64,000 bases of DNA. It comes from Betaproteobacteria bacterium (GTDB taxonomy: Bacteria; Pseudomonadota; Gammaproteobacteria; Burkholderiales; Burkholderiaceae_C). The DNA is taken from NCBI GenBank assembly GCA_009921265.1, contig RFYV01000007.1:1-64000 (forward strand), in the 5' to 3' direction. Shown piece after piece: positions 7,650 to 44,137 of this stretch. Below the pieces are notes generated by a model, which was given only the letters and a program-made list of their open reading frames with translations, was not told the DNA's origin and ran no database searches. Within the stretch, counting starts at the first letter, position 1, and each line of letters opens with the position of its first letter. Position numbers and translations under genes: made by a program.

Positions 7650-8539
7650 AAAGACTCCACCAATGCCAAGGTGCGTTCTGCCAATCGCACATTCGCGTAA
7701 TCAACCATCATGCCCTCGTATTTCACAGCGCCGACACCTCGTGCCTCGCCTTCACGAAACGCTGCAATCAAGCCGCGTGCGTATTCAATTTCTTCTGCGC
7801 TTGGAGAAAAAACCTCGTGCATCACATCCACTTGCGTGGGATGAATCGCCATCTTGCCCACAAACCCCAATTCGCGTGCAATCAAACATTCTTCACGCAG
7901 CATCTGCGTGTCTTTGAGATTCATGAACACGCCATCTACAATCCACTCAACACCCGCCGCGCGTGAATCCACTACCAATTTGCTACGTGGATAGGTCAAT
8001 GCCAAACTGCGAGGCGTCCAGTGTCCACCCAAGTCCACCATAAAGTCGCCTTGTTCGGCACTGGCCAATGCCATTCCACTCACACGCTTTGAAGACTTTG
8101 CGATATCAAATGAATTGCGCAAACCCAAACAAGTTTCAATCATCGGCAGGATCGATAAACTTCCAACGGCAACACCCGCTTTTATTTCAATAACTTGCAA
8201 GGCCTTGGAAACAGTTTCAATATCGTGCGCGTCATCAGCTTTGGGCAATGCAACACCCGCCACATTGAATAACGAATGATTGTGAAAGACGCCCAAATCG
8301 GCCACGTAGTCTCCAGCGCGTGGATTACTGATTCTCAAGTACATCGGTTTTTTTAAACCCAATCCAAGTACCTGTTGTATATTTTTTCTGGCTTCATCTT
8401 TTGCATTCAATGGAACTGAATCTTCCAAATCAAAAATCATCGCGTCAGCCGCGCCGAGTTGCGCCTTTGTTAATAATTCAGTTCGACTTCCTGGTGCAAA
8501 CAACAAAGTTCGATGCATTTTTTTTGCTTGAGATGACAT
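7646..8539 (-). CDS. HpcH/HpaI aldolase / CitE-like acyl-CoA lyase
   Basis: 297 residues of the CitE family, which cleaves or hydrolyses malyl-CoA-type 3-hydroxyacyl-CoAs with Mg. Visible landmarks are RTLLFAPGSRTELL, MIFDLEDSVPLNAKDEAR with the acidic substrate/metal region, PMIETCLGLRN, GDFMVDLGGHW and GKMAIHPTQVDVMHEVFSP. The start ATG follows GGAAGGG. It lies three bases after the upstream hydratase and overlaps the following synthetase start, so the three are translated together. The order hydratase, lyase, ligase suggests degradation of a branched or aryl short-chain acid through a 3-hydroxyacyl-CoA. Confidence 0.9.
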   Translation of the reverse strand: MSSQAKKMHRTLLFAPGSRTELLTKAQLGAADAMIFDLEDSVPLNAKDEARKNIQQVLGLGLKKPMYLRISNPRAGDYVADLGVFHNHSLFNVAGVALPKADDAHDIETVSKALQVIEIKAGVAVGSLSILPMIETCLGLRNSFDIAKSSKRVSGMALASAEQGDFMVDLGGHWTPRSLALTYPRSKLVVDSRAAGVEWIVDGVFMNLKDTQMLREECLIARELGFVGKMAIHPTQVDVMHEVFSPSAEEIEYARGLIAAFREGEARGVGAVKYEGMMVDYANVRLAERTLALVESL

Positions 8540-8542
8540 GAT

Positions 8543-9337
8543 TTATTTTCCCTTCCAAAAGGCTGGACGTTTTTCTAAAAATGCCTGTGGACCTTCTTTT
8601 GAATCTTCTGTTGTATAAAGAAAAGCCGCCATATCTTGCTCTAATCGCAAACCATCAGCAAGCGTCAAATCTGCTCCTCGATGAATCGCTGCTTTGGCCG
8701 AGCGCACAGCAACAGGCGCATTGGCAGCCATCATCTCTGCCAACTTCAAAGCTTGTTCTATCAATTCGTTTTGAGGCACCACGTATTGAACCAATCCAAT
8801 CGATAAGGCTTCGCTCGCTGAAACAGTACGCCCCGTCAAAATCATGTCTAATGCACGCGCACTACCAATACATCGAGATAAGCGTTGAGTGCCGCCATTG
8901 CCTGGCATCAAACCTCGCTTGACTTCACCAAATGCAAAACTCGATGTATCAGCAGCAAACGCGAGATCGCACAACAAAGTCAATTCGACACCACCACCGA
9001 TAGCAGGTCCATTGACTGCAGCAATGATGGGTTTATCAAATGCGGCGATGCCTTCGCCTTGCTCCCAACGATACCGTTTCATTTCTGCAATTGGAATATT
9101 TGCATTCATCGCAGAAAACTCACGCAAATCCATTCCTGCTGAAAATGCTTTCTCGCCCTCGCCTGTCAAGATCACTGCGCCGACTTGCGCGTCACGTCTC
9201 AGTTCATCCAATGCCGTGCGCAATTCGCCACGCATTTTCATGTTGATGGCGTTCATGGCTTCGGGCCTATTGAGTGTCAAGATGGCGACACGTCCGCGAA
9301 GTTCTTGTTTGATTGTTTCAAAAGTGTGTGTGTTCAT
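8543..9337 (-). CDS. Enoyl-CoA hydratase/isomerase (crotonase fold)
   Basis: 264 residues, normal family size. The oxyanion-hole segments are AFSAGMDLREF and NGPAIGGGVELTLLCD; the first catalytic Glu is in FGEVKRGLMPGNGGTQRL. The second Glu of classical hydratases is replaced by Asp in ARALDMILTG, so hydratase activity may be weak or the reaction may differ. It heads the three-gene minus operon and faces the acyl-CoA dehydrogenase at 9415, the natural supplier of a 2-enoyl-CoA. Confidence 0.92.
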   Translation of the reverse strand: MNTHTFETIKQELRGRVAILTLNRPEAMNAINMKMRGELRTALDELRRDAQVGAVILTGEGEKAFSAGMDLREFSAMNANIPIAEMKRYRWEQGEGIAAFDKPIIAAVNGPAIGGGVELTLLCDLAFAADTSSFAFGEVKRGLMPGNGGTQRLSRCIGSARALDMILTGRTVSASEALSIGLVQYVVPQNELIEQALKLAEMMAANAPVAVRSAKAAIHRGADLTLADGLRLEQDMAAFLYTTEDSKEGPQAFLEKRPAFWKGK

Positions 9338-9372
9338 GACAGTGATTTTTTTAATTGAATGTAGAATAACTT

Positions 9373-9401
9373 AAACACGCCCGTCTCTGTGTAGCGTGTT
9401 T
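9373..9401. promoter_or_regulatory. Inverted repeat in divergent promoter region
   Basis: AAACACGC (9373-9380) and GCGTGTTT (9394-9401) are perfect 8-base arms whose centres lie 21 bases apart, two helical turns. The site lies in the 77-base gap between the hydratase operon (minus) and the acyl-CoA dehydrogenase (plus), so one regulator could control both. Confidence 0.45.
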
Positions 9402-9414
9402 GTCATCTCATCCT

Positions 9415-10557
9415 ATGAACTTCGGAAATACAAGCGATCAGGAGCTCATGCTCCAATCTGTACAAACATTGCTCGGCGATGTTTGCACCATGGAATACGC
9501 CTCCAAGTGCGATCTTAACCATACTGCACCTCGAGAAGCCTTCAACGCCATGGCCCAAAATGGCTGGCTGGGGCTCATTGCCCCCGAGTCTTTTGGTGGC
9601 GCAGCAGGTTCCCCCACCGATTTGGCCTTGCTTCTCGAAGAAACAGGCCATCATTTTGAAGAACTCGGACTGTGGTTGTTCAGAAATTTTACTTATGGTT
9701 GCTATGCGGTGCTCAAGCACGGCACCGAAGAACAAAAGCAACGCATCGTGCCTCGCACCGCAAAGGGTGAACTTTCTTTTGCATTTGCATTGTCTGAACC
9801 CGATTCGGGCTCGGACGCTGCAGCGCTCAGAACCCGCGCATTTGCCGACGGCGATGGATTCATTATCAATGGTCGCAAACAGTGGACATCGGGAATGGAT
9901 ATCTCCGACTATGTGTTGCTGGCACTTCGCACCAACGACTTGGGCAAAAAACAATTAGGCATTAGTACTTTTTTGGTCGATACCAAACTCCCTGGCATCG
10001 AAGTTCGCAAGATCCCAACACTGGGCCAACACGCCATTGGAACCACTGAAGTTACTTTTACCGACGTGTGGGTCTCCAATACAGCGGTGCTGGGTCAACT
10101 CGATCACGGATGGGCTGTTTGCGAAGACACTTTGCGTTATGAACGCCTTTGTTTATCTGCTGTGCGCATTGGTGCGGCGCGACGTGCATTCGAATACGCG
10201 TTAGATTACGCAAAAACACGCCATCAATTTGGCAAGCCCATTGGTAGCTTTCAAGTCACGCAACACAAATTTGCAGACATGAAAGTGATGTTAGACACTT
10301 CCTTCACCATGATCCGACGTTATGCGTGGCTCATGGAAAACGGCAAAGCAGAACGCGCCGATACAGCAGTCATCAAGTATTACATCGGTGAGTCATACAA
10401 AACAATTGCAGATATGTGTTTGCAAATATTGGGGGGCTATGGATACAGCATGGAATACCCGATGCAACGTTTCTTTAGAGACTCACGCCTTGCAACCATT
10501 GGTGGCGGCACTTCAGAAATTCAAAAAAATATCATTGCAGCCACATTAGGGCTTTGA
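9415..10557 (+). CDS. Acyl-CoA dehydrogenase, copy A
   Basis: 380 residues from the ATG at 9415. A TTG at 9400 would add five residues but lies inside the inverted repeat; neither start has a clear ribosome site. FAD-linked alpha,beta-dehydrogenation of an acyl-CoA. Landmarks: FALSEPDSGSDAAAL, the FAD/substrate segment GRKQWTSGMDISDY, RHQFGKPIGSFQ, and QILGGYGYSMEYPMQRFFRD with the catalytic Glu in the MEYP position, ending GGGTSEIQKN. It is divergent from the hydratase-lyase-synthetase operon and completes a short beta-oxidation-like set. Electron-transfer flavoprotein is not in the window. Confidence 0.92.
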   Translation: MNFGNTSDQELMLQSVQTLLGDVCTMEYASKCDLNHTAPREAFNAMAQNGWLGLIAPESFGGAAGSPTDLALLLEETGHHFEELGLWLFRNFTYGCYAVLKHGTEEQKQRIVPRTAKGELSFAFALSEPDSGSDAAALRTRAFADGDGFIINGRKQWTSGMDISDYVLLALRTNDLGKKQLGISTFLVDTKLPGIEVRKIPTLGQHAIGTTEVTFTDVWVSNTAVLGQLDHGWAVCEDTLRYERLCLSAVRIGAARRAFEYALDYAKTRHQFGKPIGSFQVTQHKFADMKVMLDTSFTMIRRYAWLMENGKAERADTAVIKYYIGESYKTIADMCLQILGGYGYSMEYPMQRFFRDSRLATIGGGTSEIQKNIIAATLGL

Positions 10558-10563
10558 TTTTTT

Positions 10564-11730
10564 TTAAGCAATTAATTCGCTCATGATGCGATACAAAAGG
10601 GCTTGACCTTCAAAGCCAATGCCAGGTCGTTTGGGTAAATTAAGCATACCCGAATCAAGTTTGGCATTATCTGCAAAGCCACCAAAATCTCCAAATACGC
10701 CTGGATAAGACTCGGCACCGCCCAAACCAAAACCAGCGGCAATTTGCAAAGACATTTGATTGCCTCCGTGCGGAAACAAGCCACTTCGTCTCCATTGATG
10801 TGAATCGAGCATGCTCAATGTTCGCGCGTATTGCGCAATGCCATAAGCTTGCGGTGGATCGACTTGAATAACATCACGATCACCTCGCAGTCCACCAAAC
10901 TTCACGAGATTGGCAACATCTTGTGTTGAAAATAAATTTTCACCCGTGGCCAACGGACTTTCGTAATGTTGTGCAAGTTCTGACATTAAACCATAGTCCA
11001 ATGGATCACAAGGTTCTTCAAACCAACGCAATTTAAAAGGCGCAAGTGCTTTAGCATATGCAAATGCGTTAGCACGATCAAATTTGCAATTGGCGTCCAC
11101 TGCCAAATGCTCACCAGAACCCACCACTTTCATCACCGCCTCCAACCGTTTTAAATCTTCTGATAATGGCAGTCCACCCACCTTCATCTTGACCATCGTA
11201 TAACCTGCATCCAAATGGCGACGCATTTCATCTTGTAAATTTTGAATGGTTTGGCCAGGAAAATACCAGCCGCCACCGACATAACAAAATACGCGATCGG
11301 CAATTTTTCCGTTGTTGTAACGCTGAGCCAGCAACTCATGCAAAGGAAGATTTGCAATTTTGGCCACAGCATCCCATAGCGCCACTTCAATCGTTCCAAT
11401 GGCAATAGAACGCTCACTGTGCCCGCCTGCTTTTTCGCGCTGCATCATGCATGCAACTATTTTTTCTGGATCTAAATTATTGCCCGTGTGATCCAACAAT
11501 GATGAGGGATCCGCACGCAAAATTCTGGGGATAAACCGCTCACGCATTTGTGCGCCACACGCATAACGACCTGTTGAATTGAATGCAAACCCAATAACAG
11601 GCATGCCGTCACGAATACAGTCAGTGATAACAGCAACCACTGATGTGGTCATTTCAGAAAAATCAAAACTCGAATTGCTGAGCCTTGAATTGAGCGCAAC
11701 GGCGCGCTCTCGAATATCAACAATACGCAT
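10564..11730 (-). CDS. Enolase-superfamily sugar-acid dehydratase, D-tartrate dehydratase-like
   Basis: 388 residues. From the opening MRIVDIRE to the end IGFEGQALLY it follows the D(-)-tartrate dehydratase of Bradyrhizobium very closely. The mechanistic set is complete: KMK (Lys181, Lys183), metal ligands Asp212 (VDANCKF), Glu238/239 (WFEEP) and Glu264 (ATGENL), and His321 in FPHGGNQMSL. These enzymes remove water from a sugar diacid to give a 2-oxo acid (oxaloacetate from tartrate). A Bug receptor is encoded immediately upstream (22-base gap), forming a two-gene uptake-plus-dehydration unit. Tartrate is the best substrate guess; a related aldarate is possible. Confidence 0.9.
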   Translation of the reverse strand: MRIVDIRERAVALNSRLSNSSFDFSEMTTSVVAVITDCIRDGMPVIGFAFNSTGRYACGAQMRERFIPRILRADPSSLLDHTGNNLDPEKIVACMMQREKAGGHSERSIAIGTIEVALWDAVAKIANLPLHELLAQRYNNGKIADRVFCYVGGGWYFPGQTIQNLQDEMRRHLDAGYTMVKMKVGGLPLSEDLKRLEAVMKVVGSGEHLAVDANCKFDRANAFAYAKALAPFKLRWFEEPCDPLDYGLMSELAQHYESPLATGENLFSTQDVANLVKFGGLRGDRDVIQVDPPQAYGIAQYARTLSMLDSHQWRRSGLFPHGGNQMSLQIAAGFGLGGAESYPGVFGDFGGFADNAKLDSGMLNLPKRPGIGFEGQALLYRIMSELIA

Positions 11731-12718: not shown

Positions 12719-12776
12719 GAATCTCTCCTGCTTGTTTAATGCGATGCTAACATTTTGCAGTATCCTTTAAGACAGA

Positions 12777-13703
12777 TCAGAAGTACGTGCCTGACAAGGT
12801 CAAGAGTTGCCCACCCGTACTCAGTTTGAATCGAGCGATACCCGCGCTTCGCGCTGTATTAACACCGCCCAAATCAAGCATTTGTACACCTCGCGCTTGC
12901 AATTCTTCGATACCCTTCCAAAGAATCAGATTGTGCGCATGCGAATCTCTACCTTGATCCGATGTCCAACCGACCTGATAGGTTGCGGCACGACCATGAA
13001 TCAAAAACATCATGGCAGCAATTCGATCTTTGCCCAAATCTGCACGCAAAGTCAAAATACTTTCACTGGCAGTCTTTCTGAATTGTGTGTAATGCTCATA
13101 AAAAGAACTAGGCAGGCCTTGAAGATTTTTTTCTTTTTGCTGCTGCAAATCTAAATCCAACAACCATCGAAATTGTCCATGCTTGGTACCGACTTGGTGA
13201 ATTTTCATATCCGATGATTCACCGGTCACCAAACGATGTCGCCAACGACGATCGAGTTGAGCACGCAAATTTTCAAGCGATGGAGTCAAGTCCAACATGA
13301 CGGTGGACAGGCCTGACATCACTCTTCGCCAGCGACTGAGTCCATGGGATTGACCCTTGGCGACTTCAGGCGTCATGGTCATGAATCGAAGTCCTCTCAA
13401 AGGTAAAGATTTCTTAAGCGCTTGATAGACCTTGGCTTGAGTTTCAGAAGGTAATGGTTGAAGCCACAAAGGACCACGACTGCACAGTGCAATGCCGCCC
13501 CAATCGCCCCATTTTCGAATAATGAATTGCGCCAGTGCAACCACTTCGCCATTGATCTCTACACGTGCGCGGCACACTTCAACGCCAATTTTTTGCAATG
13601 AAGCGCCATAGGCCCAGTCTTGCTGCAAAGCAGCATTTAAACCTTGATGAGTTGAATCCCACAATGACATGTCACTGTTGTTCCAATGTATTTGAGGGAG
13701 CAT
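12777..13703 (-). CDS. FemAB/GNAT-like aminoacyl- or acyltransferase
   Basis: About 308 residues. The region LQQDWAYGASLQ near the start, then a second GNAT-like half with YQVGWTSDQGRDSHAHNLI, LILWKGIEELQARGVQMLDLGG and GIARFKLSTGG, is the pattern of the FemX/lipid II:glycine glycyltransferase-like family found widely in Gram-negative bacteria, often of unknown target. I chose the ATG at 13701-13703, which places IHWNNSD at the N-terminus; starts at 13736 and 13670 are possible and none has a clear ribosome site. The frame stays open to 13799, overlapping the divergent synthetase. No catabolic link to neighbours is evident. Confidence 0.7.
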   Translation of the reverse strand: MLPQIHWNNSDMSLWDSTHQGLNAALQQDWAYGASLQKIGVEVCRARVEINGEVVALAQFIIRKWGDWGGIALCSRGPLWLQPLPSETQAKVYQALKKSLPLRGLRFMTMTPEVAKGQSHGLSRWRRVMSGLSTVMLDLTPSLENLRAQLDRRWRHRLVTGESSDMKIHQVGTKHGQFRWLLDLDLQQQKEKNLQGLPSSFYEHYTQFRKTASESILTLRADLGKDRIAAMMFLIHGRAATYQVGWTSDQGRDSHAHNLILWKGIEELQARGVQMLDLGGVNTARSAGIARFKLSTGGQLLTLSGTYF

Positions 13704-13757
13704 CGTGTATAAAGATGTAATGAAATAAAGTCTCATCTTAAGGCCTACAATCAAATC

Positions 13758-39123: not shown

Positions 39124-39162
39124 GAAAATTCATCTGACTTCTAATTGTTAAAGGACTTCGCC

Positions 39163-40116
39163 TTGAAATATGCTTTCCAAAATATAGCGGTAGTTGGCGC
39201 AGGCGCAGTCGGCAGTTTTTTTGGTGGCATGCTCGCGCGTGCAGGTCATTCGGTTACCCTCATCGGTCGAGCTACTCACGTCGAGGCCATCAATCGTCAT
39301 GGATTGCAAATCGATATGGCGGGCTCCACTGCTACTGAATCGATTCAAACAAAAGCAAGCACCGATTTATCTGCCATTCAAAACGCCGACCTGATTTTGT
39401 TTTGCGTCAAGTCTCCCGACAGTCAATCCGTTGCCAAGCAAATGGCCCCGTATCTTGCGCCCAGCACAGTGGTGATGAGTTTGCAAAATGGTGTCGACAA
39501 TGTCGACGCCATTGCAAAAGAAATCAAGCAAGCAGTCATTCCTGCGGTGGTTTATGTGGCCACTGAAATTGCTGCACCGGGTCTTGTGAAGCATCACGGT
39601 CGTGGCGACTTGGTGATTGGCGCGATGAATCCCTCGCGATTGAATAACGCCAATCAAACGCTTCAAAATATAGTTGAATTGTTTGCACACGCACAAGTGA
39701 CCGTTAAAATTTCTGACAACGTGATGGTCGATTTGTGGTCTAAATTGATGGTCAATTGCGCCTTCAATGCCATATCAGGATTGGCACAACTTCCCTATGG
39801 AAAATTGTCGGTTTTGGAATCGGTTCAACAAACACAAGCGGCCGTAGTGAATGAAGTGATTGCAGTTGCAAAAATAGATGGCGTTACCATGTCTGCACAA
39901 AGTGCGATGCAAACTATTGCACAAATTGCAAAGGCAATGGCAACACAAAAATCATCCACTGCGCAAGACATGGCACGACACAAACTCAGTGAGATCGATC
40001 ACCTCAATGGTTACATCGTTCGACGAGGACTTGAATTGCGCATTCCAACTCCTGTGAATCAAACCTTGCATGCATTAGTTAAGTTGGTTGAATCAACCTA
40101 CCCTTCCCATGCCTAG
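39163..40116 (+). CDS. Ketopantoate reductase (PanE/ApbA) family 2-oxo-acid reductase
   Basis: 317 residues from the TTG at 39163, which has AAGGA eight bases upstream; a TTG at 39145 is less well placed. Rossmann start IAVVGAGAVGSFFGGMLARA, FCVKSPDSQS with a likely cofactor-contacting Lys, SKLMVNCAFNAISGL with the catalytic Lys and Asn, and SEIDHLNGYIVRRG with the substrate Glu are all present, so it should be active. In a catabolic operon it more likely reduces or oxidises a branched 2-oxo/2-hydroxy acid than makes pantoate. Its last eight bases overlap the kinase start. Confidence 0.9.
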   Translation: MKYAFQNIAVVGAGAVGSFFGGMLARAGHSVTLIGRATHVEAINRHGLQIDMAGSTATESIQTKASTDLSAIQNADLILFCVKSPDSQSVAKQMAPYLAPSTVVMSLQNGVDNVDAIAKEIKQAVIPAVVYVATEIAAPGLVKHHGRGDLVIGAMNPSRLNNANQTLQNIVELFAHAQVTVKISDNVMVDLWSKLMVNCAFNAISGLAQLPYGKLSVLESVQQTQAAVVNEVIAVAKIDGVTMSAQSAMQTIAQIAKAMATQKSSTAQDMARHKLSEIDHLNGYIVRRGLELRIPTPVNQTLHALVKLVESTYPSHA

Positions 40117-41116
40117 TCAACAAGTGCCCACAGAATTTGTAAGGGCCTTGCAAGAACTTGATCTCTCATCATCGGATATTTTGTACGGCACGCCCTTAAC
40201 GGGTGGCGTGTCATCCGATATTTGGCGTATCGAAACAGAAAAAGGCATGATTTGTGCCAAGCGTGCATTAGCTAAACTGCGAGTGGCCGCCGATTGGCAA
40301 GCACCTGTGGAGCGCAATCAATACGAAGCACTGTGGTTACAAGTGGCTAACAAAGCCAGCGCAAATTGTGCGCCACAACTTTTAGGGCAACATCCAGAGT
40401 TTGGTGTTCTTATAATGAATTACATGCCGCCCTCAGATTTTCATTTGTGGAAAAAAATGCTTCACGATGGTATTGCTGCTGTCGCAACAGCGCAATCGGT
40501 TGGAATTGTTTTATCGCGAATCCACAGTTATGCGGCAAAGCAAGCAAACTTAGCCGAACAATTTCCAACGGACGATATTTTTTATCAAATCAGACTCGAG
40601 CCTTATTTAGTAGCTACAGCATCGAAGCACCCTGATTTAGCACCTGTGTTACAAGCCTTGGTTTTGCAAACGCAAAGCAATGTAAAAACCTTGGTACACG
40701 GAGATGTAAGTCCTAAAAACATATTGATAGGCAAACAAGGTCCTGTTTTGTTGGACGCCGAATGCGCCACATGGAGCGATCCTGCATTCGACTTGGCGTT
40801 TTGTCTCAACCATTTATTGCTCAAATGTTTATGGACACCCGCATCCACATCTGATTTTTTAAAATGCTTTGGTGTTTTATCTAACACCTATTTGCAAGCC
40901 GTTGATTGGGAATCCAAAGAAGCACTCGAAAAAAGAACTGCGCATTTGTTGCCTGGTTTATTTTTGGCTCGTGTTGACGGCAAGTCGCCCGTTGAATACA
41001 TCACTGACGATCATCAACGCGAACAAGTCAGACGCGTTGGGCGCGCTTTGCTATTAAACCCCGTCGATCAATTGAAACAAATAGCCCTTGCATGGGCCAA
41101 GGAGTTAGCCACATGA
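40109..41116 (+). CDS. APH/choline-kinase-fold small-molecule kinase
   Basis: 335 residues from the ATG at 40109, overlapping the previous gene by eight bases; no clear ribosome site, consistent with coupling. The kinase loop VHGDVSPKNILIG has the catalytic Asp and the Mg-binding Asn, followed by LLDAECATWSDPAFDLAF in the DFG-like position. N-terminal LTGGVSSDIWRIET is the nucleotide loop and ICAKRAL the likely ATP Lys. Family members phosphorylate hydroxyl groups of small molecules. It is coupled by an ATGA overlap to an enolase-like protein, which strongly suggests that it makes the phosphorylated substrate of that enzyme. Antibiotic resistance is unlikely. Confidence 0.87.
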   Translation: MPSQQVPTEFVRALQELDLSSSDILYGTPLTGGVSSDIWRIETEKGMICAKRALAKLRVAADWQAPVERNQYEALWLQVANKASANCAPQLLGQHPEFGVLIMNYMPPSDFHLWKKMLHDGIAAVATAQSVGIVLSRIHSYAAKQANLAEQFPTDDIFYQIRLEPYLVATASKHPDLAPVLQALVLQTQSNVKTLVHGDVSPKNILIGKQGPVLLDAECATWSDPAFDLAFCLNHLLLKCLWTPASTSDFLKCFGVLSNTYLQAVDWESKEALEKRTAHLLPGLFLARVDGKSPVEYITDDHQREQVRRVGRALLLNPVDQLKQIALAWAKELAT

Positions 41117-42393
41117 CTTCATTTGCTATTCAATCCATTGTAGGTCGACGTGTGTGGGACAGTCGAGGTCGTCCAACCGTAGAAGCCGAAGTCACTCTCA
41201 GTGATGGATCGATGGGGCGTGCGATTGCACCTGCAGGTGCATCCAAAGGTAAGCGAGAAGCGTTGGAGTTGCGCGATGGTGGCGCTTCTTTTGGTGGACT
41301 CGATGTCTTAAAAGCAGTGAGTCATATCAATAGTGAAATTGCACGCACACTCATTGGCGCACATGCAGACAATCAATCAAACATCGATCAACGATTGATT
41401 GAACTAGATGGCACACACAACAAATCACGATTAGGTGCCAATGCAACCTTGGCTGTATCGATGGCAACTGCTTATGCGATGGCCTCCTGTTGTAATATGC
41501 CGCTTTATCGTTATTTATCGCCAGACTCAGTAGGTCGCATACCCATGCCACAAATTCAAATTTTTGGTGGCGGTGCGCATGCGGGCAAACGCGTTGATAT
41601 TCAAGATTTTATGATCGTGTGTCCTGGTGCAAAAACTTTTGCACAAGCGCTTGAATGGACCGCCGAGGTTTATCGACATGCGGGTTTACTCATGACACAA
41701 CGCGGATCTCTTTTTGGTGTTGCAGATGAAGGCGGTTGGTGGCCAGACTTCACTAGCAACGAGCAAGCTTTGCAAATGCTTGTGAAATCCATTGAAAGCG
41801 CAGGCTTTATTCCTGGCCAGCAAGTAGCAATAGCTTTGGATATCGCGGCATCTGAATTTGGACAAAACGGCATATATCGACTTGGCCTTGAATCGCGACA
41901 ACTCGATTCGGATGGTTTGATTGAGATGTTGGTTGGTTGGATTAACAAATACCCTATCGTGTCCATTGAAGATCCATTGGCTGAAGATGACCCGCAAGGC
42001 TTTGCGCGTTTTACCAAAGCCATGGGCCATCGCTTGCAAATTGTGGGCGATGATTTTTTGGTATCAGATGCAAAATTAATTCGCGAAGCCGCAAAGCTGG
42101 GGGCGGCAAATTCCGTATTGCTCAAGCCCAATCAGAGGGGTACATTAACCGAGACGCTTGAGGCTTGGACAACGGCCAAAGAACTGGGCTATGCGGCGAT
42201 TGTGTCTGCGCGTTCGGGTGAGACCGAAGACACCACCATCGTCGATTTAGCCATTGGTTGGAATGTAGGACAACTCAAAGTGGGCTCGTTTGCCAGAAGT
42301 GAGCGTATGGCCAAATGGAACCACGCTCTGCGTATCGAAGAGCATTTGGGCCTGCATGCAGGTTTTGCAGGTGGTGCGGTGTTCAATCGGTGA
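41113..42393 (+). CDS. Enolase paralogue with altered active site
   Basis: 426 residues from the ATG at 41113, AAGGAG upstream. The enolase fold is complete: metal ligands Asp243 (ALDIAASEF), Glu286 (IEDPLAEDD) and Asp313 (VGDDFLV), acid Glu206 (VADEGGWWP), base Lys338 (LLKPNQRGTLTET), phosphate-binding Arg367 and Ser368, and Lys389. Three places differ from housekeeping enolase: the His of SHRSGE is Ala366, QEFM is QDFM (Asp165), and the first mobile loop PSGASTG is PAGASKG. It probably eliminates water from a different 2-phospho-3-hydroxy acid supplied by the adjacent kinase. The bacterium's glycolytic enolase should be elsewhere. Confidence 0.92.
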   Translation: MTSFAIQSIVGRRVWDSRGRPTVEAEVTLSDGSMGRAIAPAGASKGKREALELRDGGASFGGLDVLKAVSHINSEIARTLIGAHADNQSNIDQRLIELDGTHNKSRLGANATLAVSMATAYAMASCCNMPLYRYLSPDSVGRIPMPQIQIFGGGAHAGKRVDIQDFMIVCPGAKTFAQALEWTAEVYRHAGLLMTQRGSLFGVADEGGWWPDFTSNEQALQMLVKSIESAGFIPGQQVAIALDIAASEFGQNGIYRLGLESRQLDSDGLIEMLVGWINKYPIVSIEDPLAEDDPQGFARFTKAMGHRLQIVGDDFLVSDAKLIREAAKLGAANSVLLKPNQRGTLTETLEAWTTAKELGYAAIVSARSGETEDTTIVDLAIGWNVGQLKVGSFARSERMAKWNHALRIEEHLGLHAGFAGGAVFNR

Positions 42394-42461
42394 CTGCCCT
42401 TTGTTGACATTTGGCTTATAGTGGGGACGTTGATAAAAAAAAGACAAGATAAGGAATAAAA

Positions 42462-43430
42462 ATGAAACAATATTTCAAGTGGATTTATCTATTGTTAATT
42501 GCCCTGCTGTTTACAAACGCAGCGCACGCCAAATACCCCGAAAAAACCATCAAAATTATTGTGCCATTTACTGCAGGTGGTGCAACTGACATTGCGGGTC
42601 GCCTTTTGGCAGAAGAGCTTTCAAAAGCTTTAAATAATCCAGTGGTTGTTGAAAATCGCGAAGGTGCAGCAGGTGTGATTGGCGTGCAAGCCACCACCAA
42701 AGCCGCGCCTGATGGTTATACATTGCTAATTGCAGGCAATACCTTGATGACCTCGCATAAAACACTCTACAAAAATTTACCCTACGATTCCTTGCGCGAT
42801 TTAGAAACGGTGTCACGCATTTCTGCAGGTTCTCACATCATTGTTGTCAAAGCCAATTCCAACATCAAAGACATGAAGGATCTTTTAAGATTAGCCAGCG
42901 CAAAGCCCGGCGGCATGACTTATGGATCGGGTGGAAGTGGAACAAGTGTTCACTTGGCCGCAGAAATGTTTCAAGTTCAAGCGGGCATCAAACTTTTGCA
43001 CGTCCCCTACCGTGGCACATCTCTCGCGGTGAATGGATTGATGAGCGGCGACACCGATTTGATGTTTGACACAACGCCTTCATCGTTTCCGAAAATTAAA
43101 TCGGGACAATTCAGATCGCTAGGTATTACGTCTCTCAATCGCTCGCCTGATTTACCCGATGTTCCATCGGTTGCCGAACAAGGCTTGCCCAATTATGAAG
43201 TTTTATTTTGGCTCGGCTTGTATGCACCCAAAGGAACGCCCGCAGATGTACTTCAATTATTAGAGTCATCGATTCAAAAAATATTGGCACAAGACAATGT
43301 GAAGAAAAAATTAGCCGATTTAGGCATGTCGTCGTTTTTTGCTTCGCGCGCGGATCTCACCAAACAAATTACCAAAGAAACCGCAGAATGGGCTGATGTG
43401 ATCAAAAAAGCCGGCGTGGTACTTGAGTAA
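42462..43430 (+). CDS. Bug/TctC-type periplasmic receptor
   Basis: 322 residues; AAGGAAT before the ATG. Signal peptide MKQYFKWIYLLLIALLFTNA ends at AHA, then KYPEKTIKIIVPFTAGGATD. Other marks: LYKNLPYDSLRDLET, GSGGSGTSVHLAAEMF and LHVPYRGTSLAVNGLMSGD (Arg in PYRG). It lies 68 bases after the enolase-like gene and 35 before the aldolase-like gene, so it probably captures the substrate of this module. Confidence 0.93.
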   Translation: MKQYFKWIYLLLIALLFTNAAHAKYPEKTIKIIVPFTAGGATDIAGRLLAEELSKALNNPVVVENREGAAGVIGVQATTKAAPDGYTLLIAGNTLMTSHKTLYKNLPYDSLRDLETVSRISAGSHIIVVKANSNIKDMKDLLRLASAKPGGMTYGSGGSGTSVHLAAEMFQVQAGIKLLHVPYRGTSLAVNGLMSGDTDLMFDTTPSSFPKIKSGQFRSLGITSLNRSPDLPDVPSVAEQGLPNYEVLFWLGLYAPKGTPADVLQLLESSIQKILAQDNVKKKLADLGMSSFFASRADLTKQITKETAEWADVIKKAGVVLE

Positions 43431-43465
43431 AAAAAATTTTAAACTAATCAACTGGAGAACACCCA

Positions 43466-44137
43466 ATGTCATTAAATAAAATTGGATTGCGAATTAACAC
43501 GGATTTTCAACGCGTCGAAAAAAAATGGATTGAGCGCGCTAGAAAAATTCAAATTTCAATCGTTGGAGATGTGTGTTACCGCCTCAAAGGTTTTCACGCA
43601 GGATTTAATCAATACGGCAAAAAGAAAAAATTTGCAGGCCCTGCCCTCACAGTGATGGTACGCCCTGGTGACAACTTGATGCTTCACAAAGCCATCGACA
43701 TCGCTCAACCGGGTGACGTGATTGTGATCGACGCAGGCGGAGCACTCAATACTGCAATCTTTGGCGCCATGATGAGTAATCACGCATTAAAGCGTGGTGT
43801 CGAAGCCATGGTCATCAATGGAGCGATTCGTGATGCTGAAGAAATTTCACATTTAGACATGGGCGTTGTTGCATTAGGTGCAACGCCTAATGGTCCATTC
43901 AAAACAGGACCTGGGGAAATCGGATACCCCATTACTTGTGGTGGCGTCGTGATTCATCCGGGCGATTTAATTTTGGGTGACTGGGACGGCGTACAAACCG
44001 TTGATTTAAGCGAAGTGCCTCGCGTAATTGAAGAGGCTGAAGCCATTGCAATAAAAGAACAAGAATGGGAAAAACAAATTCAAAATGGCACATGGGATAG
44101 AAAATGGGTGGACGAGTTTATTAATAAACTTTTGTAA
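43466..44137 (+). CDS. RraA-like / HMG aldolase-type class II aldolase-decarboxylase
   Basis: 223 residues with CTGGAGAA before the ATG. The fold marks are GDVIVIDAGGALNTAIFG, INGAIRDAEEISHLDMGVVA with the Arg-Asp pair that binds substrate and metal, and LGDWDGVQTVD. These fit 4-hydroxy-4-methyl-2-oxoglutarate aldolase / oxaloacetate decarboxylase-type proteins; RNase E inhibitor RraA shares the fold but is shorter and lacks the metal-binding acids. A pyruvate-releasing retro-aldol or oxo-acid decarboxylation is the likely role, downstream of the kinase-enolase pair. Confidence 0.88.
   Translation: MSLNKIGLRINTDFQRVEKKWIERARKIQISIVGDVCYRLKGFHAGFNQYGKKKKFAGPALTVMVRPGDNLMLHKAIDIAQPGDVIVIDAGGALNTAIFGAMMSNHALKRGVEAMVINGAIRDAEEISHLDMGVVALGATPNGPFKTGPGEIGYPITCGGVVIHPGDLILGDWDGVQTVDLSEVPRVIEEAEAIAIKEQEWEKQIQNGTWDRKWVDEFINKLL

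Follow-up and report, generated by a model that had tools for sequence, protein, structure and literature searches.

The element considered here is a three-gene chain on the forward strand of contig RFYV01000007.1 of a Betaproteobacteria bacterium (GenBank assembly GCA_009921265.1), of which positions 1 to 64,000 were analysed; this 64,000-nucleotide stretch is referred to as the window. A PanE-type reductase, a kinase of the aminoglycoside phosphotransferase (APH) fold and a paralogue of enolase are encoded as one overlapping translational chain (39163-42393), and genes for a Bug-type receptor and an RraA-like protein then follow. The possible TTG start of the reductase at 39163 is preceded by AAAGGA at 39150-39155, and its stop codon is at 40114-40116; the kinase ATG at 40109 gives an 8-base overlap with this gene end, while the kinase stop codon (41114-41116) and the enolase ATG at 41113 share the sequence ATGA. 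The gene order and both overlaps described in an earlier sequence-only reading of this DNA are borne out by these coordinates. The features of the chain are listed below.

39163..40116, + strand: PanE/ApbA-family 2-oxo acid reductase, TTG start (PF02558/PF08546; TIGR00745, the ketopantoate reductase family, 262.8 bits against a cut-off of 141.35)
40109..41116, + strand: APH-fold small-molecule kinase (PF01636; nearest solved fold 5-methylthioribose kinase)
41113..42393, + strand: enolase paralogue of the kinase-paired 'D-A-A' subfamily, assigned by signature and clade (PF03952/PF00113; TIGR01060, 499.7 bits against a cut-off of 300)
41605..41607, + strand: codon gat, Asp at the yeast E168 position in the enolase alignment
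41722..41724, + strand: codon gca, Ala (canonical Gly) before the D-E(211) pair in the enolase alignment
42208..42210, + strand: codon gcg, Ala at the yeast H373 position in the enolase alignment

The kinase and the enolase paralogue form a conserved unit. A scan of GTDB genomes with the enolase alone gave 94 relatives, and the kinase is present in 76 of the best 80 loci kept from these; of the other four, L029 starts inside the enolase gene, and L044, L053 and L072 have no kinase match in the stretch examined. Among the loci of at least 4.5 kb, together with the window, 104 kinase-enolase pairs were counted, 94 of them on the same strand and no more than 200 bp apart, with three others separated by 206 to 537 bp and seven by 4.4 to 7.9 kb. 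At E up to 1e-20 the kinase was found in nine of 398 genomes drawn evenly across the phylum, the host genome included, and these nine are also the ones with an enolase of 52% identity or more, which in each case carries the altered residues described below (9/9); a distant enolase of this type without the kinase would escape these cut-offs. Similarly, in 150 genomes of the family, the kinase and an enolase with 61% identity or more occur in the same seven, and an eighth (G103) has a weak kinase match (27% identity) and no enolase reaching 61%. Whether the two genes are neighbours in relatives was the test by which the sequence-only reading had proposed to stand or fall, and these counts favour it. 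The pair is present in many unrelated bacteria and some archaea, the loci of Actinomycetota, Bacteroidota, Sphingobium and haloarchaea having been found via kinase matches. A chance neighbourhood is ruled out by the co-occurrence in the 398 genomes and the adjacency of 94 of the 104 pairs.

An alignment of 140 enolases, comprising 104 from loci with a kinase match and 36 from loci without one, was inspected at three signature positions: yeast-type E168, the Gly before D-E211, and H373. Asp, Ala and Ala (D-A-A) were found at these positions in 103 of the 104 kinase-linked rows, the outlier (L104) having D, C and G. Rows without a kinase match have Glu, Gly and His (E-G-H) in 33 of 36 cases, the DNA around most of them spanning only about 4 kb, and D-A-A in the remaining three (L044, L053 and L072). 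The signature is not merely a product of searching with the enolase, since the loci fetched via kinase matches, those of Rhodococcus, Methylobacterium, Embleya, Persicobacter, Sphingobium and haloarchaea, also have D-A-A. A tree of 70 rows, in which the canonical members are nearly all from Pseudomonadota and L104 and L106 form long branches, separates D-A-A from E-G-H by one branch with support of 100/100. Alignment and tree together show that the kinase-paired enolases are, at the level of sequence, a distinct subfamily.

A control set of 11 further enolase copies was also surveyed. It combined the copies without the kinase that scored closest, duplicates from genomes lacking the kinase, and the third copies of G133 and G101. 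Every one of the 11 is E-G-H, and the kinase was not found in any of the eight kinase-less genomes of the set. D-A-A as a general mark of duplicated enolases was rejected on this count, and the control leaves the probabilities of the readings weighed below as they were.

Around the altered positions, the 106 D-A-A rows keep the equivalents of S39, H159, Q167, E211, the metal ligands, K345, R374, S375 and K396 in 105 or 106 rows, with one X at each of K345 and K396. The paralogue in the window (AlphaFold model with a predicted local distance difference test score, pLDDT, of 88.6) passes the enolase cut-off of TIGR01060 and departs from canonical enolase in having Asp for Glu168 and Ala for His373. 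From yeast enolase studies we take Glu168, Glu211 and His373 to surround C3 and its hydroxyl, E168 and H373 to be important for catalysis, Glu211 to be the acid protonating the leaving hydroxyl and the Lys to be the base, the metal, carboxylate and phosphate roles of the other residues being assumed likewise. On this basis, the 2-phospho-carboxylate head of the substrate with its alpha-hydrogen would be unchanged and its C3 side different. The altered C3-side residues, along with the kept metal, base, phosphate and carboxylate residues, point to a 2-phospho-3-hydroxy acid other than 2-phosphoglycerate. The view of this protein as an altered enolase in the sequence-only reading is supported, the changes falling at the presumed C3-lining positions and sparing those for the 2-phospho-carboxylate.

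The host genome (3.56 Mb in 267 contigs) contains one other PF00113 match, on contig C47, which scores 446 bits compared with 302 bits for the paralogue and is 49% identical to it. A further enolase of at least 422 bits was present in all 14 carriers checked, the kinase-paired copies scoring 200-314 bits. An ordinary enolase able to use the kinase product would make an enolase of the module's own needless, which would argue against 2-phosphoglycerate as that product. Two carriers hold a third enolase, of the E-G-H type (G133:C1:697206-698054 and G101:C313:5858-6706). The paralogue at G017:C1:3053516-3054637 (L006, L159) matches residues 6-378 only, keeps D and the first A, and has no RSGE motif in the stretch examined, so its end is broken or missing, either because the gene is broken or through a sequencing error.

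The motifs HGDxSPKN and DAECA (the x column aside) are invariant in 35 aligned kinases, which share 43 invariant columns; both are present in the kinase of the window, as expected from the earlier claim that its catalytic residues are intact. Its AlphaFold model has a pLDDT of 95.8, and the top Foldseek matches are the 5-methylthioribose kinases 2pyw, 2pun and 2pul at 14-16% identity. The best NCBIfam model was likewise 5-methylthioribose kinase (TIGR01767), at 45.2 bits against a cut-off of 275, and no NCBIfam cut-off was reached.

Partner genes were surveyed with a gene panel within 9 kb in 108 loci other than the window. PanE was found in 15 loci and a CtBP-like D-2-hydroxyacid dehydrogenase in 23, with no locus having both; the 11 named loci among the 15 are all Burkholderiales or Betaproteobacteria. 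Four more PF02558 matches above the cut-off occur in the host genome, so the pantothenate enzyme may lie elsewhere. The panel also revealed a fumarylacetoacetate-hydrolase-family (FAH) gene in 39 loci, a CUT1 sugar-binding protein in 14 and an HpaD-like extradiol dioxygenase in seven. Several cluster types can be described. In two Burkholderiales loci (L016 and L021), genes of a tripartite ATP-independent periplasmic (TRAP) transporter, namely TAtT, DctP and a fused DctQM, lie just upstream of PanE-kinase-enolase, with a GntR/FCD regulator also present in L016. Many Rhodobacterales and Roseibium loci encode LacI, the kinase, the enolase, FAH, short-chain dehydrogenases/reductases (SDRs), one of them D-xylose-dehydrogenase-like, and a sugar ATP-binding cassette (ABC) transporter; the closest solved structure to the FAH of the alphaproteobacterial loci is L-2,4-diketo-3-deoxyrhamnonate hydrolase (8gsr). 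Extradiol-type clusters were found on plasmids of Rhizobium, Cupriavidus, Rhodococcus and Sphingobium, and two haloarchaeal plasmids carry the kinase-enolase pair with mandelate-racemase-type genes, IlvC and cupins.

Phosphoenolpyruvate (PEP) carboxylase was found within 9 kb in three of the 108 loci and just beyond in a fourth, L149. Its gene adjoins those of CtBP and the kinase in the Rhizobium-type loci L092 (8124-12945), L107 (6133-10963), L149 and L150; in the Cupriavidus (L099) and Rhodococcus (L094) loci an FAH-family gene adjoins CtBP in its stead. When eight motif patterns were compared with the PEP carboxylase of Rhizobium sp. N324, four matched (TAHPTE, GYSDSxKDxG, GRGGxxGRGG and WxQxR) and four failed, so nothing certain follows from it about the substrate. 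The diverged locus L104, on an Enterobacter chuandaensis plasmid, has an enolase-like gene at 8274-9542 (-), an APH kinase at 9941-10993 (+) and a D-2-hydroxyacid dehydrogenase at 12766-13734 (+); in the D-C-G enolase-like protein CEKGG replaces the D-E211-G-G stretch, and the trio is accompanied by an aminotransferase and by haem-oxygenase-like proteins in a biosynthetic-looking cluster.

The two genes downstream of the chain in the window had been counted by the sequence-only reading as members of the same block.

42462..43430, + strand: Bug/TctC solute-binding protein (PF03401), a neighbour and not a conserved partner
43466..44137, + strand: RraA-like putative aldolase or oxaloacetate decarboxylase (PF03737; NF004850, 252.2 bits), a neighbour and not a conserved partner

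That membership does not hold. With the panel, RraA was found in none of the 108 other loci, although in L103 it missed a gene annotated as RraA-family, some 4 kb away from the haloarchaeal pair, and Bug-family matches occur in five of 80 loci, at other places. Both genes were rejected as parts of the module and are regarded as local neighbours only. The region 1856-57850 of the window is rich in Bug/TctC-like receptor genes (an estimate of about 16 from inspection of the translations, with the Pfam match established for 42462-43430), interspersed with CoA-transferase, dehydrogenase and hydrolase genes.

The best explanation of PanE, the kinase and the enolase paralogue is that they represent, in this genome, one form of a catabolic module that is widespread. 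With moderate confidence, we read this as a new-substrate module in which the kinase and the altered enolase dehydrate a 2-phospho acid bulkier at C3. A 2-oxo-3-hydroxy acid would be reduced at C2 to a 2-hydroxy acid, by PanE here and by the CtBP-like D-2-hydroxyacid dehydrogenase in other lineages, and a reductase fits this step ahead of the kinase; in the sugar-type clusters, sugar oxidation may be the source of the hydroxy acid. Phosphorylation of the 2-hydroxyl by the kinase would follow. The altered enolase would then act on a substrate that is bulkier at C3 than 2-phosphoglycerate, removing its C2 hydrogen and C3 hydroxyl with the metals, the Lys base and the Glu211 acid typical of enolases. 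This would give a PEP-like enol phosphate, which would yield a 2-oxo-3-deoxy acid and enter pyruvate-level metabolism. Oxidation at C4 could conceivably make the phosphate labile where a cluster encodes an SDR together with a diketo-acid hydrolase. The identity of the substrate and the removal of the phosphate are the least certain of these steps.

A broader proposal may be offered more tentatively, its chance falling a little short of even: that the true enolase family has a second widespread physiological reaction, the phosphorylation-dependent dehydration of 2,3-dihydroxy (sugar) acids, with the kinase activating the 2-hydroxyl group and the D-A-A enolase generating a substituted PEP. In organisms ranging from Pseudomonadota to haloarchaea, this reaction would serve catabolism of the sugar-acid, extradiol-cleavage and TRAP-fed types, and it may have been borrowed in at least one biosynthetic-looking cluster.

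The sequence-only reading had further presented the module as an alternative to Fe-S dihydroxy-acid dehydratases, and the evidence on this is mixed. Dehydratase homologues were sought by tblastn (E up to 1e-5) with IlvD, mandelate-racemase-type and UxaA queries. Of 31 loci with a diketo-acid-hydrolase-like FAH, 17 have no dehydratase homologue in the stretch examined and 14 have one; among the 14 loci with both FAH and the CUT1 protein, eight have none and six have one. If the proposal is true, the pair would provide an Fe-S-free alternative to these enzymes.

Several observations weigh against a module for a new substrate. An ordinary sugar-acid dehydratase homologue is present in 14 of the 31 FAH-type loci. 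The placement of E168 and H373 about C3 draws on work with yeast enolase. The upstream step varies among loci: in 41 of the 108, which include some short contigs, the panel detected none of PanE, CtBP and FAH. For L044, L053 and L072, the D-A-A enolase has no kinase in the stretch examined. PEP carboxylase beside the kinase and CtBP in the four Rhizobium-type loci would fit PEP as the product; a homologue of E. coli PykF was found in none of the loci examined, and no annotated phosphatase occurs in the two annotated sugar-type stretches, a sulfatase-like gene lying some 5 kb upstream in one of them (L096). These three points speak for PEP or a close relative as the product. One haloarchaeal stretch has a HAD-IIA hydrolase about 5 kb away.

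A search for another kinase beside the unpaired D-A-A enolases failed, the upstream gene encoding a flavin mononucleotide (FMN) reductase in L044 and L053 and a transporter in L072. The FMN reductase genes, at 1319-1981 in L044 and 9022-9951 in L053, are NADPH-dependent in type and lie just upstream of the enolase; the same kind of gene occurs in the extradiol-type clusters.

The strongest alternative, which we nevertheless consider unlikely, is a glycerate route: the kinase would represent a new D-glycerate 2-kinase, of the APH fold, and its partner a dedicated enolase isozyme, carrying hydroxypyruvate through D-glycerate and 2-phosphoglycerate to PEP. Both PanE and CtBP types would suit the reduction of a 2-oxo acid, PEP would require no further special enzyme, and the PEP carboxylase genes of the four Rhizobium-type loci, as well as the TIGR01060 score of the paralogue, are in keeping with such a route. 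It would, however, have to accommodate three substitutions fixed in 103 of the 104 kinase-linked rows, two of them at residues important for catalysis in yeast enolase, the co-occurrence of kinase and paralogue in carriers that all (14/14) have another enolase, and the E-G-H state of enolase duplicates lacking the kinase. The kinase itself has no glycerate kinase family match (E up to 0.001), Pfam giving only APH, TCAD9 and fructosamine kinase and NCBIfam no glycerate kinase model. Excerpts from a paper on glycerate kinases (PMC2063504) describe three classes structurally unrelated to each other, none of which is there called APH-fold.

An improbable reading has the paralogue forming true PEP by expelling something other than water, such as an alkoxy group, from C3 of its 2-phospho acid, the module thereby stripping a 3-substituted lactate. 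The smaller residues at the presumed C3 side would be compatible with this, the small Burkholderiales clusters of TRAP transporter, PanE, kinase and enolase would then yield a central metabolite without further enzymes, and the PEP carboxylase neighbour would also be accounted for; but Glu211, presumably the acid protonating a leaving hydroxyl, is kept in 106 of 106 D-A-A rows, and no candidate substrate is evident. That the paralogue is catalytically idle, or regulatory or structural, with the pair kept for another reason, is very improbable, for although His373 is lost, the metal ligands and the equivalents of Lys345, Lys396, Arg374, Ser375, Glu211, Ser39 and His159 are kept, apart from the single X at each of the two lysines.

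Enolase is commonly regarded as a single-purpose enzyme. Excerpts from a 2025 review give its reaction only as 2-phosphoglycerate to PEP (PMC12965863). If the reading is true, a clade with three fixed active-site changes, tied to a kinase, would represent a second metabolic role for enolase, and the pairing suggests an undescribed way to remove water from small acids after the addition of phosphate. Annotated records name the kinase 'aminoglycoside phosphotransferase' and the enolase 'phosphopyruvate hydratase'; such misleading names may be concealing a catabolic pathway present in many bacteria. Open PMC texts yielded no paper describing an enolase paired with an APH kinase, the subscription literature lying mostly outside these; the parts are known folds, and neither the kinase-enolase pairing nor the D-A-A subfamily appears to have been described within the reach of those texts.

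Compared with enolase proper (phosphopyruvate hydratase, TIGR01060), the paralogue has the same fold, metal ligands, base and phosphate-binding residues, but differs in having D, A and A for E, G and H, in being paired with a kinase and in occurring alongside another enolase in every carrier checked. The kinase is alike in fold to 5-methylthioribose kinase (2pyw, 2pun, 2pul) but distant from it in identity and model score. Carboxyphosphonoenolpyruvate synthase is an enolase relative of phosphinothricin biosynthesis; it and the paralogue would both be enolase relatives with a non-enolase substrate, although that enzyme is biosynthetic and phosphonate-specific. The known sugar-acid route, as outlined in excerpts from PMC11199699, runs through a sugar dehydrogenase, a lactonase, a dehydratase, a 4-dehydrogenase and a hydrolase. 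With the non-phosphorylating route 3 as given in the same excerpts (FucF/FucG, LRA5/LRA6; PMC11199699), the alphaproteobacterial relatives share a sugar transporter, a xylose-dehydrogenase-like SDR, further SDRs and a diketo-acid-hydrolase-like FAH, whereas their clusters add the kinase and the enolase, and 17 of the 31 FAH-type loci are without a homologue of the known dehydratases in the stretch examined.

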